DNA of 64,000 bases, from the NCBI RefSeq assembly GCF_009834365.1, contig NZ_CP041348.1, positions 1,364,501 through 1,428,500 on the forward strand, read 5' to 3'. Under the pieces are notes generated by a model, which did not search any database, was not told where the DNA came from, and saw only the letters and a list, made by a program, of their open reading frames with translations. This DNA is from Komagataeibacter xylinus (GTDB lineage: Bacteria > Pseudomonadota > Alphaproteobacteria > Acetobacterales > Acetobacteraceae). Positions 49,874 through 52,964 of the stretch are shown one piece after another. Each line of letters opens with the position of its first letter. Within the stretch, counting starts at the first letter, position 1. Position numbers and translations under genes: made by a program.

Positions 49874-49999
49874 TTACCGGGGCGTATCGTTGCGGGCGCG
49901 GGGGGCATTGGGCCGTCCGGGTGCCAGGAGCAGCACCATAAGCAGCAGCACGACCGCGCCCGACCAGCCCCGCCTGCACGGGGTGGCGGAGCTGCCCAT
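49874..49999 (-). CDS. Small single-pass membrane protein coupled to the porin gene
   Basis: A 41-codon ORF whose ATG overlaps the porin stop (TGATG). It encodes a basic N-terminus (CRRGW), one hydrophobic helix (AVVLLLMVLLLAPG) and a basic tail. The overlap suggests translational coupling with the porin. Nothing homologous is recalled, and it could be a chance frame. Confidence 0.35.
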   Translation of the reverse strand: MGSSATPCRRGWSGAVVLLLMVLLLAPGRPNAPRARNDTPR

Positions 50000-51618
50000 C
50001 AGAACGTAATGTTGCTGTGCAGGCCAAAAATGGCCTCGTTGCCCACGCGGCGGTTATAGCTCACGCCATAATCCGGCACGCCGCCCGAGGGGTTCCATAC
50101 GTACTGGAAGTCAGGCTGCATCACCATCCATGGCGTGACCTGCGCCTGATAGGTCAGTTCAAGGTGGTTTTCATTGCCCTGCACGGGGGTGTAGGCGCTC
50201 AGGGCCGAGTTGCGGTCGAACTGCCGCTCGCCCGAGCTTGCCCGGCCAATGCCCCAGCCCAGCCCGATCGTGTCATTGTCGCGGCCCCTGAACGGGGCCT
50301 TGAGGTTCAGGCCCGCATCAATGGCGAAGCTGATCAGGTTGCGATCCCCGCTATTGCCGGTGGCGCGCACGAACAGCCCCAGTGACCGGGCTGACTTGAG
50401 CGAGGGCCGCCAGAGCATCTGGTCGATGATGCCGTACACCATCCAGTTGCCCCGGTCCCAGCGCGGAATGCCGGTGGTGTCATTCGGGCTGCCAAGCGCC
50501 TGGCCCAGATTGTTGTAGCGGTAATCGGCGAACTTCGCGGTATCGTAATAGCCGCCCAGCTTGTACACGCCCGGCAGGCCGGGGTTTTTGGTCACGTTCG
50601 TCATATCGGCGGGCTGGGGGTTGATCGCGTATTGCAGCTCGGTGATAAGCAGCGCGCCGGTGCCCATGTTGAAGTTGGTGCCGTTGGCGCCGTTATAGGT
50701 CTGGCTGGTTGGATCGGAATTATAGCCGCTGGCGGAACCGGTAGCCTGCTGGATGGGGGTTGAATTGTACCGGTTGCCGGGCGGGTTGTCGTCCGCTGCG
50801 GCAAACATGAAGGTGAACTTCTCGCTCGGCCGGTAGCGGATGCGGATGGCGGGTGAGGAGAGCGGCCATGACGGCCCGCCGCCATACAGGTTGACCGAGG
50901 GCGCCATGGGCCAGCCAAAGTTGGCGTTGAGGTAGAGCGAGGCGTAATCGCTGATCAGGAACTCGGTATCAAGATCCTGCTGGCCGATCTTCACATCCAG
51001 TTTGCCCTTGAGGAAGGACTGCTGGTACCACAGCTCGAACAGCCGGGTGGAGCGGTCGGCCTCGAACCCGCTGACAGGGTTGAAGTTGGCCAGATGATCC
51101 TGCGAGATCGAGCGCCCGCGTGTCTGCAGCGCGCTGACATTGAACAGCCCGCCCTTGAGGCCGAACAGCTTTTCGGTATCCACGGTAAGCGTGGGCATGG
51201 TCACGCCATCATAGGCAGGCCCGGTGCCTGAGCCACTGGAGCCATCATTGCTGGAAGGCGAGCCGCCGGTGCCGTTACCCCAGACTTCATCAACTTCCTG
51301 AATGTCGAAGCTGATGCCGTGTTTGTACAGCCACGGCCGCGCGCCCCACATATTGCCCAGCAGGTTGCCGCTGGTATCCAATTTGTCGCCATCGCCTGCG
51401 GCTTTTTCTTCCGCATCAGCCGTGGCGCGTTCAGAATCGCGCACCGTGGCGGGGTCGATCTGCACGATCAGCGGCGTGGAATTGCCCAGGCGGGCACGGT
51501 CCTGCGCAATCTGGGTCTGGGCGTGGGCTACGGTGCAGCAGGTGCCGCTCAGGGCGCCCGACAGCAGCAGCATGTGCGACAGGGATTGCCGACGCGGGAG
51601 GAGAATATGCAATTTCAT
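49999..51618 (-). CDS. oprB: OprB-family carbohydrate-selective porin
   Basis: A 539-residue outer-membrane protein with a signal peptide (cleavage near AHAQTQ) and the OprB domain. The mature N-terminus carries a short, acidic, helical segment (RATADAEEKAAGD). Then come WGARPWLYKHGISFDIQEVDEVWGN, a long beta-barrel with LWYQQSFLKGKLDVKIGQQD, and a C-terminal GNEAIFGLHSNITF ending in Phe. OprB porins are expanded in acetic acid bacteria, which oxidise sugars in the periplasm. The leader contains a cobalamin riboswitch, which is unexpected for this family and hints at a corrinoid-linked substrate or regulation. Confidence 0.9.
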   Translation of the reverse strand: MKLHILLPRRQSLSHMLLLSGALSGTCCTVAHAQTQIAQDRARLGNSTPLIVQIDPATVRDSERATADAEEKAAGDGDKLDTSGNLLGNMWGARPWLYKHGISFDIQEVDEVWGNGTGGSPSSNDGSSGSGTGPAYDGVTMPTLTVDTEKLFGLKGGLFNVSALQTRGRSISQDHLANFNPVSGFEADRSTRLFELWYQQSFLKGKLDVKIGQQDLDTEFLISDYASLYLNANFGWPMAPSVNLYGGGPSWPLSSPAIRIRYRPSEKFTFMFAAADDNPPGNRYNSTPIQQATGSASGYNSDPTSQTYNGANGTNFNMGTGALLITELQYAINPQPADMTNVTKNPGLPGVYKLGGYYDTAKFADYRYNNLGQALGSPNDTTGIPRWDRGNWMVYGIIDQMLWRPSLKSARSLGLFVRATGNSGDRNLISFAIDAGLNLKAPFRGRDNDTIGLGWGIGRASSGERQFDRNSALSAYTPVQGNENHLELTYQAQVTPWMVMQPDFQYVWNPSGGVPDYGVSYNRRVGNEAIFGLHSNITF

Positions 51619-51643
51619 GGTGGAAACATCCCGTCAGGATGGG

Positions 51644-51663
51644 TCTGGCGCCCTGGCGCCAGA
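51644..51663 (-). promoter_or_regulatory. Hairpin in the porin leader
   Basis: TCTGGCGCC and GGCGCCAGA form a perfect 9-bp stem with two loop bases, 26 bases upstream of the porin ATG and downstream of the cobalamin aptamer. It lacks a following U-tract on the minus strand, so it is not a simple terminator. It could be part of the riboswitch expression platform. Confidence 0.5.
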
Positions 51664-51784
51664 AAATGACAGGCCGCAGAAGAGGCCCGTCGCTGCTACG
51701 GCATACGGGATGTCAGGTCGGAGGACGCATGGTCTCATATCCATCTCCGGTCAGGCCCGCCCGGCGATATCGTTAAAGGACAAT

Positions 51785-51985
51785 GGCAGGTCTCCTGACT
51801 TGCGGGTCATTGCACTCCATCTCCCTTCCCGGCCGGAGCCAGTGGTTGCCGTTGGTATGGCACCAGATGAAGCACTCTCCGCCTACAGTTGCGGGTACAG
51901 TTGCCGACTGCGCCCCCGGGCCTGATTACCCTGCCGGAGCTTACGGCATTCCCTTTTTCACCCGTTTGCACGGGACCATTGACTT
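51785..51985 (-). promoter_or_regulatory. Cobalamin riboswitch
   Basis: On the minus strand the conserved elements follow in the right order: GCAAACGGGTGAAAAAGGGAA, CGCAACTGTAGGCGG, an ACCACTGG box, and finally the B12 box AAGTCAGGAGACCTGCC (51785-51801). The aptamer occupies about 200 bases between ribokinase and the OprB porin and reads toward the porin, whose ATG is about 165 bases further on. Binding of adenosylcobalamin would be expected to lower porin expression. Confidence 0.9.
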
Positions 51986-52025
51986 GTCGGGCAGGACTAT
52001 ACCGTGCGCGGATCAATGCGCAAGC

Positions 52026-52964
52026 TCAGCCCGGCTGTGCATCCAGCAGGGTGGCGACTTCATCTGCCGTGGGCGCGGCCTCGGCGGCTCCTGCGCGCGT
52101 GGTGGCCAGCGCGCCGCAGCCTGCAGCAAAACGCACGGCTTCGGGCATATCCGCTCCGCGCGCCAGCGCCGTGGCCAGACCGGCGTTGAAGCAGTCACCC
52201 GCTGCCACCGTGTCGATTGCCTTGACGCGGAAGGGCGGCACAAATCCCCGTGCCGCCGGGGTGGACCACACCACGCCCCGATGCCCCAGCTTGATGATGA
52301 CCGTATGCGTGCCGCGTGCGTGCAGGATACGGGCGGCGGCCAGGGATGTGGCCTCATCGGTGGGGGTGATGCCGGTCAGGGCCTGTGTTTCGATCTCGTT
52401 GGGGGTAATGATGCTGGCCATGGCGTACAGCGCCGCGGGCAGTCCGGTATCCGGCACGGGGGCGGGGTCGAGCATGACGGGTATGCCACGCCCGTGTGCC
52501 GTGCGTGCCATGGCCAGCACAAGCTGCGGGTCCATTTCCATCTGCAGCATGAGCATCGCGGCATTGTCCAGCACCGGGGCAAGGATTGCGGCGCACTGGC
52601 CGCCATGTGCCATGTTGGCACCGCCATCGACAAGGATCTGGTTCTGGCCTGCATGGTTGATGGTAATGAAGGCGCGCCCGGTTCCCGCTGTTGCATCGGC
52701 CATCAGGCAGCGCGTATTTACGCCGGCTTCAGCCAGGGTGGCGCGTGCCATCTCTGCCAGCATGTCCTGCCCGGTCCAGCCTGCAAGGGCCACGTCCTGG
52801 TCCAGCCGTGCTACGGCAATGGCCTGGTTGGCTCCCTTGCCACCCAGCCCGGTGCTGGAGGCATGCACATGCAGCGTCTCGCCCGGCCGGGCAAAACGCG
52901 CGACATGCACGACAAAATCAATATTCGTGCTGCCAGTGACGGCAATGGCGGACGGCTTTGACAT
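52026..52964 (-). CDS. rbsK: Ribokinase (PfkB family)
   Basis: A 312-residue sugar kinase. It has the two PfkB signatures: GLGGKGANQAIAVARL near the N-terminus and DTVAAGDCFNAGLATAL near the C-terminus (catalytic Asp kept, DTxGAGD varied to DTVAAGD). AVTGSTNIDFVV is the usual ribokinase start. It phosphorylates ribose to ribose 5-phosphate, although related sugars or nucleosides are possible. ATG 52964 is chosen because sequence upstream is a decayed repeat rather than coding. No ribose transporter is nearby. Confidence 0.9.
   Translation of the reverse strand: MSKPSAIAVTGSTNIDFVVHVARFARPGETLHVHASSTGLGGKGANQAIAVARLDQDVALAGWTGQDMLAEMARATLAEAGVNTRCLMADATAGTGRAFITINHAGQNQILVDGGANMAHGGQCAAILAPVLDNAAMLMLQMEMDPQLVLAMARTAHGRGIPVMLDPAPVPDTGLPAALYAMASIITPNEIETQALTGITPTDEATSLAAARILHARGTHTVIIKLGHRGVVWSTPAARGFVPPFRVKAIDTVAAGDCFNAGLATALARGADMPEAVRFAAGCGALATTRAGAAEAAPTADEVATLLDAQPG

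Follow-up and report, generated by a model that had tools for sequence, protein, structure and literature searches.

A 64-kb stretch of Komagataeibacter xylinus DNA (64,000 nucleotides (nt) of contig NZ_CP041348.1, positions 1,364,501 to 1,428,500, hereafter the window) carries a cobalamin (vitamin B12) riboswitch in front of a gene for an OprB-family porin. The riboswitch is the sole match above the Rfam gathering threshold that cmscan returns within the window (RF00174 Cobalamin, 51995-51768 on the minus strand; 99.6 bits against a threshold of 31.5, E-value 1.1e-23), and the model, positions 1-189, is complete and matched end to end. The porin open reading frame (ORF), 51618-49999, encodes 539 amino acids and is identified as OprB by PF04966 (344.8 bits; residues 133-539 on positions 3-372 of the 372 of the profile); its closest named relative is from Komagataeibacter xylinus (95%). 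A full cobalamin aptamer ahead of an OprB porin is what the first-pass annotation of this DNA, made from the letters alone, had described; the two scores bear this out, and the Infernal search with the Rfam model that it had suggested gives a match far above threshold. A 150-nt gap separates the aptamer from the porin ATG, and upstream of the aptamer a ribokinase-like gene ends at 52026. Three further elements go beyond the first-pass annotation: a five-codon ORF (51730-51713), a helix between an anti-Shine-Dalgarno sequence (anti-SD) and the Shine-Dalgarno (SD) region of the porin, and a conserved -10 box. The features are as follows.

52018..52023, minus strand: putative -35 element TTGCGC, right after the stop of the ribokinase-like gene (from the sequence)
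51996..52001, minus strand: putative -10 element TATAGT (in 14 of 14 leaders of the window's type, type A below)
51768..51995, minus strand: cobalamin riboswitch aptamer, RF00174 (cmscan, 99.6 bits)
51885..51895, minus strand: L5 segment CCCGCAACTGT, with CCCGC able to kiss L13 (conserved in the alignment)
51785..51800, minus strand: B12 box (sequence and alignment of relatives)
51747..51765, minus strand: P13 hairpin of the expression platform, whose loop L13, GCGGG (51760-51756), is complementary to CCCGC of L5 (sequence and near-invariance in relatives)
51713..51730, minus strand: five-codon leader ORF, M-R-P-P-T-stop (conservation of ATG and stop)
51705..51712, minus strand: anti-SD CATCCCGT, directly 3' of the leader ORF stop (pairing with the porin SD)
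51644..51663, minus strand: hairpin within the anti-SD/SD stem (folding and RNAalifold)
51627..51634, minus strand: porin ribosome-binding region ACGGGATG, complementary to the anti-SD (pairing)
49999..51618, minus strand: OprB-family porin, 539 amino acids (PF04966)

Both marks of a cobalamin riboswitch, the B12 box and the complementarity of L5 and L13 (CCCGC and GCGGG), are found. The B12 box, put at 51785-51801 by the first-pass annotation, is placed here at 51800-51785, and by analogy with known cobalamin riboswitches L5 and L13 would make a loop-loop contact in this leader.

Comparison of related leaders, another step that the first-pass annotation had proposed, shows that the arrangement is a property of the genus. 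A cobalamin riboswitch stands directly before such a porin in 18 of the 19 Komagataeibacter genomes searched, the source genome included (in several of the 18 a contig end falls inside the porin); the exception, G005, has no such pair and, at the cut-off used, one more distant porin only. Among 72 loci of relatives fetched from public genomes, the riboswitch is present in 15 of the 63 that have at least 100 nt upstream (the other 9 were excluded from riboswitch and neighbour counts), and all 15 belong to Komagataeibacter, Novacetimonas and Gluconacetobacter entanii. De-duplication by sequence gave 24 distinct leaders, drawn from related species and not independent of one another, which comprise type A (14 leaders, the window's among them, that have CATCCTGACGG ahead of the porin) and types B and C (the other 10). 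A leader whose contig ends inside the porin (L055/L120) lies outside this set, and a possible third riboswitch-porin pair in G008 (C3:1802500) lies outside the sample.

All 14 type-A leaders have TATAGT 5' of the aptamer, and in the 13 where the distance could be measured it precedes GGTCCCG by 23-24 nt; types B and C have TATAAT in 2 of 10 leaders and, by eye, similar boxes in the others, and a TTG-type element can be seen by eye at the -35 place in most relatives. Because the conserved TATAGT box sits just 5' of the aptamer, it is very probable that aptamer and porin are on one messenger RNA (mRNA), and a regulatory link between riboswitch and porin appears very likely. Riboswitch control of the porin, as proposed in the first-pass annotation, thus gains support from conservation in the genus and from this promoter-like box, against which it must be set that a consensus scan for sigma-70 sites came up empty over 51500-52150, missing the proposed upstream promoter as well.

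A very short ORF lies between aptamer and porin. Its ATG occupies a fixed site in all 24 distinct leaders, and a stop codon follows at +15 nt in 23 of them (TGA in 18, TAG in 3 and TAA in 2), the remaining leader, from K. swingsii (L090, also in G004), having TGG. All 12 bases between ATG and stop vary, i.e. the length is kept and the peptide is not (MRPPT, MRPPS, MHFLL, MHFFL, MSCFP, MDPTG, MRQIT, MLRIT, MNTTS, MYFLL, MYKTS, MYKTI and MYPTS); the contig-cut leader L055/L120 also has a five-codon ORF, MAPTS. Among offsets 3 to 74, none besides +15 has a stop in at least half of the 24 leaders. The start of this mini-ORF, 67-70 nt after the start of the B12 box, is also the place where other riboswitches of these genomes have start codons. 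A B12-box-like match is present in 89 other leaders, of which 37 fit a pattern of loop, SD and start codon (52 fall outside it); one of the 37 is L055, and in 33 of the remaining 36, which are non-porin leaders, the start codon lies 68-71 nt after the B12-box start, a count that is descriptive, given that the pattern favours starts near an SD and that many of the 37 rows are near-copies from related strains.

Some of these non-porin switches open directly into a gene (for a MetE-domain protein), and others open into short ORFs of 23 codons (before a DUF2147 gene, with stop/start overlap), 16-19 codons (p116), 43 codons, or 23 in one case, before p161, and 34-36 codons before a second MetE-domain protein. 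The 23-codon ORF before DUF2147 is conserved (MRHGKTNAADQCPPCFLFLAETS and kin; plus strand from 7170 in L035 and from 8652 in L037), and its stop overlaps the following ATG (TGATG or TAATG), an arrangement that looks like translational coupling. A longer leader ORF, open in the window from an ATG at 51744, spans 36 codons, is in frame with the porin and stops 15 nt short of the porin ATG. It was rejected as a candidate: only the closest leaders (L031, L032, L057 and L096) preserve its length, and elsewhere it differs or runs on.

The anti-SD/SD helix, whose anti-SD strand directly follows the mini-ORF stop, is another conserved element. Across 18 distinct composite rows (types A-C), 98.9% of the 90 cells of its five core pairs are paired, against at most 52.2% when the helix is slid, and 0 of 500 shuffles match it for cells paired; extended to eight pairs, the helix has 89.6% of cells paired. 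RNAalifold recovers it unprompted from 13 type-A leaders, with variable stems between the anti-SD and the porin SD, and one core pair shows a compensatory change from C-G to U-A in 6 of the 18 rows. In type A, duplexes of a leader's own anti-SD and SD have energies of -14.3 to -19.4 kcal/mol, compared with cross-type means of -2.4 to -6.2. When a ribosome-sized mask is laid on the mini-ORF of the window, the mean unpaired probability of the porin SD rises from 0.00 to 0.31, and with the mask elsewhere it is 0.05. The hairpin at 51644-51663, described in the first-pass annotation as having 9 base pairs, is present within this stem, with 8 pairs and a 4-nt loop according to RNA folding; RNAalifold finds it in the 13 type-A leaders with one compensatory pair (U-A in 6, C-G in 6, broken in 1), broken cells at several other pairs, and no conserved T-run 3' of it.

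The porin gene is very probably repressed by B12, and the mechanism that we propose from these elements would operate as follows. With B12 bound, the L5-L13 kissing loop would keep P13 shut and ribosomes off the five-codon ORF; with the mini-ORF untranslated, CATCCCGT would pair with ACGGGATG and porin translation would be off. Without B12, the mini-ORF would be translated, and a ribosome terminating at its stop would cover CATCCCGT and free the ribosome site of the porin, the net outcome being that the porin would be made under B12 shortage. We consider this relay the best-supported mechanism, with about an even chance of being correct. With its fixed length and variable sequence, the five-codon ORF would allow a straightforward test of whether ribosome position can serve as the relay, in hosts that are easy to handle, harmless and industrially used (vinegar, cellulose).

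Several observations weigh against the relay. All 24 triplets at +15 are T-purine-purine, three quarters of such triplets being stops, and another constraint could lie behind part of the stop conservation, which weakens that point without removing it. The SD of the window-type mini-ORF is weak, and the GGAG of P13 is rather far from the ATG. For the core helix, double changes and pair-type counts do not exceed those of shuffles (480 and 500 of 500 as high), and the single compensatory pair may be one event; own duplexes of types B and C (-11.2 to -13.4 kcal/mol) are no better than cross-type ones. Over the 24 leaders the mean unpaired probability of the porin SD is 0.19, against 0.28 with the mask on the mini-ORF and 0.24 with the control mask, and only 6 of the 24 have the core helix predicted at a probability above 0.9. 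Because the masking means shift so little and the helix is so often below that level, folding support is mixed, and the relay is plausible rather than demonstrated.

The riboswitch may also act without the mini-ORF, by direct masking of the SD linked to aptamer folding or by transcription termination, which would make the five-codon ORF incidental. Direct SD masking is frequent in Gram-negative cobalamin riboswitches, a terminator-like hairpin with a ATTTTCTG tail lies at 51691-51668, and the mixed folding result and the uniform make-up of the stop-site triplets speak in the same direction. However, the anti-SD lies about 55 nt past the end of the aptamer match, and the ATG and five-codon stop persist in 23 of 24 leaders despite changing codons, at the site used for start codons by other switches. 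The T-run 3' of the hairpin at 51691-51668 is not kept in relatives, and terminator control was rejected on that ground. We give control independent of the mini-ORF well under an even chance.

B12 riboswitches are textbook regulators, and a porin is an unusual target for one. A literature search, with most subscription journals outside it, found no paper joining “cobalamin riboswitch” with “OprB”, and the literature that it returned on cobalamin riboswitches and porins describes, in the parts accessible, no porin target. The closest precedent found for a B12 riboswitch with an upstream ORF (uORF) is the ppe2 switch of M. tuberculosis, which according to the accessible part of its description is a translational OFF switch in which the SD of the uORF sits in the L13 hairpin and the main gene needs uORF translation (PMC11260477). 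The likeness lies in the conserved upstream ORF directly after the L13 hairpin. In the same partial account, the ppe2 uORF and the main gene overlap at AUGA, and the uORF acts mainly through termination-reinitiation (PMC11260477), whereas here there is no overlap; since the mini-ORF ends 92-106 nt before the assumed porin start across the leaders (94 in the window), any coupling of the two must go through RNA structure. Also unlike ppe2, so far as that account extends, the porin leader has an ORF of five codons (in 23 of 24) whose peptide is not kept, and its aptamer fits the standard Rfam model end to end. Another parallel is mgtQ, before mgtB of Salmonella, a very short ORF whose translation frees a hidden ribosome-binding site and which controls a metal transporter; as described in the accessible text, mgtQ differs from the porin leader in having 8 codons, a dependence on acidic codons, and no B12 aptamer (PMC8092293).

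The porin begins with a signal-like stretch (by eye), followed by a predicted helical module (residues 36-74) ahead of the barrel; a conserved N-terminal stretch, RARLGNSTPLIxQIDPATVRDS (within 51618-51390 of the window), is predicted to be helical. The predicted model is of moderate quality (mean pLDDT 68.4, pTM 0.73), and the closest solved structure is OprB of P. putida (PDB 4GEY; phmmer 71.5 bits, Foldseek E 1.9e-29, TM 0.62/0.79). P. putida OprB is the best match in both structure and sequence, with 22% identity in the structural alignment; it is about 100 residues shorter, and the N-terminal helical module and the B12 riboswitch are features of the porin described here.

The source genome encodes a paralogue, 89% identical over 515 amino acids, that has no riboswitch and lies next to genes for P19-type Fe2+ transport and for a transporter of the FecB/FecCD type (L155, 3852-9886). 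Porins with P19 next to them are also seen in Gluconacetobacter, Novacetimonas and Acetobacter. Among relatives of at least 69% identity, a P19 gene is no more than about 4 kb away at 12 of 16 switch-free loci and at 0 of 15 switch-bearing ones; cbtA, a cobalt transporter gene, adjoins 6 of the 15 switch-bearing loci and one switch-free locus, that of A. pomorum, where cbtA has a riboswitch about 550 nt upstream on its own strand. Neither cbtA nor P19 was found beside 32 more distant porins; the reference sequences for these neighbour counts are from Komagataeibacter and some loci are short, so the genes may be under-called. On a phylogenetic tree, switch-bearing and switch-free porins interleave (6 changes, 3 of them forced by well-supported branches), and a distinct clade of switch-bearing porins was rejected. 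The tree was built by a quick method with SH-aLRT support only and midpoint rooting for drawing only; L102, in which the porin is broken into two pieces, was excluded, and the rows of two other porins of the source genome (L156 and L157) were taken from the weaker of two matches and have false long branches.

Elsewhere in the source genome, a second full riboswitch stands ahead of genes for DUF1636, a CobW-like protein (judged by eye) and CobN, and an adenosylcobalamin-class (RF01482-like) element below the Rfam threshold (41.7 of 50 bits) precedes cbtA. This cbtA locus is at 5250-6158 of L034 (G000:C1:1533249-1534157), and of the copies of its leader in four relatives, three reach 31.7-35.3 bits with RF00174 and the fourth 45.2 bits with RF01482.

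We read these contexts as one pore type that would serve in metal-acquisition settings and be under B12 control in one of them. The leading and most likely role would be the entry of cobalt to the periplasm, free or chelated by sugar acids, and we lean, if only slightly, towards the reading as a whole, namely a porin repressed by B12 through the mini-ORF relay and acting as a general sugar-type or metal-chelate pore in a response to cobalt or B12 shortage. Slr1908 of Synechocystis, which we take to be a member of the OprB family, offers a precedent. Passage of inorganic iron has been reported for it, and porins of the OprB type abound in its lineage; it differs from the present case in being cyanobacterial and in that no riboswitch is described for it in the accessible part of the source (PMC9705863). 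According to a review, likewise accessible in part, cobalt crosses the outer membrane through porins or TonB receptors, and no cobalt-specific outer-membrane receptor has been confirmed (PMC7689651); if the cobalt role is true, an outer-membrane cobalt entry route would be named. Against it, no metal gene adjoins the porin of the window, the role is suggested by genomic association only, and mutation of porin-like genes of Anabaena gave no cobalt resistance, as stated in the text available (PMC9705863). The fullest version, in which the five-codon ORF is a peptide-independent parking place for ribosomes that relays the B12 decision some 90-105 nt on and the OprB pore is the outer-membrane cobalt step for B12 synthesis, is put forward as tentative.

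The first-pass annotation had offered, as one candidate substrate, a compound whose metabolism needs B12. This is a poor fit because cobalamin riboswitches mostly silence their genes when B12 is abundant, and a substrate needed under B12 scarcity fits better. The porin might feed B12-independent metabolism, admitting under B12 shortage a substrate (a methyl donor or a sugar) of MetE-domain or Rieske replacements. In G008, G009, G018, K. diospyri and Komagataeibacter sp. FXV3, the riboswitch-porin pair does belong to, or adjoin, an island that encodes MetE N-domain-like proteins behind riboswitches, together with Rieske oxygenases; metE is also present in G008 and G018. However, in the source genome and the other type-A loci examined, the pair occurs without those neighbours, and the source genome has MetH and only a short, 351-amino-acid MetE-like protein, so that we regard this role as unlikely, while the B12 islands around the porin in some relatives would keep other roles open.

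The 351-amino-acid frame carries the MetE catalytic domain (PF01717, 125.5 bits; L159, G000:C1:214705-215676) and is the sole match to the family in the source genome. The MetH activation domain is present elsewhere in that genome, and an interruption of MetH by a TGA codon was rejected, as translation of the 214 matched residues puts the TGA at the domain end. The riboswitch-dense islands of some relatives (17 matches in G008), in which some switches stand back to back (L035, L036, L037, L038, L039, L067 and L068), contain metE, MetE N-domain-like proteins with Rieske oxygenases, a TonB receptor with a binding-protein ABC set, DUF2147 and small unknown proteins.

Passage of cobalamin, cobinamide or another corrinoid, the other role suggested by the first-pass annotation, found no support and is improbable; more probable is a general pore for small solutes or metal chelates that B12 controls. 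In favour of corrinoid passage are the riboswitch control, as for btuB, and a locus of N. hansenii (L078) where a riboswitch, a TonB receptor and an ABC transporter set with a binding protein, labelled BtuB-F-C-D, come after the porin. Yet OprB pores are sugar-sized and corrinoids too large for them, the same barrel occurs without a switch beside iron uptake, and the switch-bearing porins form no clade of their own. At E 1e-60, 9 of the 19 genomes have a riboswitch-led TonB receptor, labelled BtuB here, to which the source genome gives no match at E 1e-20; other TonB receptors are present there, and another B12 receptor could be among them.

That the aptamer is a leftover outside the porin transcript is very improbable: nothing speaks for it beyond the gap between aptamer and ATG and the absence of a called promoter, in a scan that also missed the proposed upstream one, whereas the aptamer is retained in 18 of 19 genomes with a conserved -10 box 5' of it and a leader 3' of it that is conserved in structure, and the scan placed no sigma-70 site between aptamer and porin either.

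In Komagataeibacter sp. FXV3, a weak riboswitch-model match (38.6 bits) lies just 3' of a switch-free porin (L086, 9727-9949). The two smaller contigs of the source genome, which are probably plasmids, carry convergent pairs of OprB relatives of 65-69% and 36-41% (L156, 6505-9424; L157, 4934-7541), and the same convergent pairing is seen in other Komagataeibacter.

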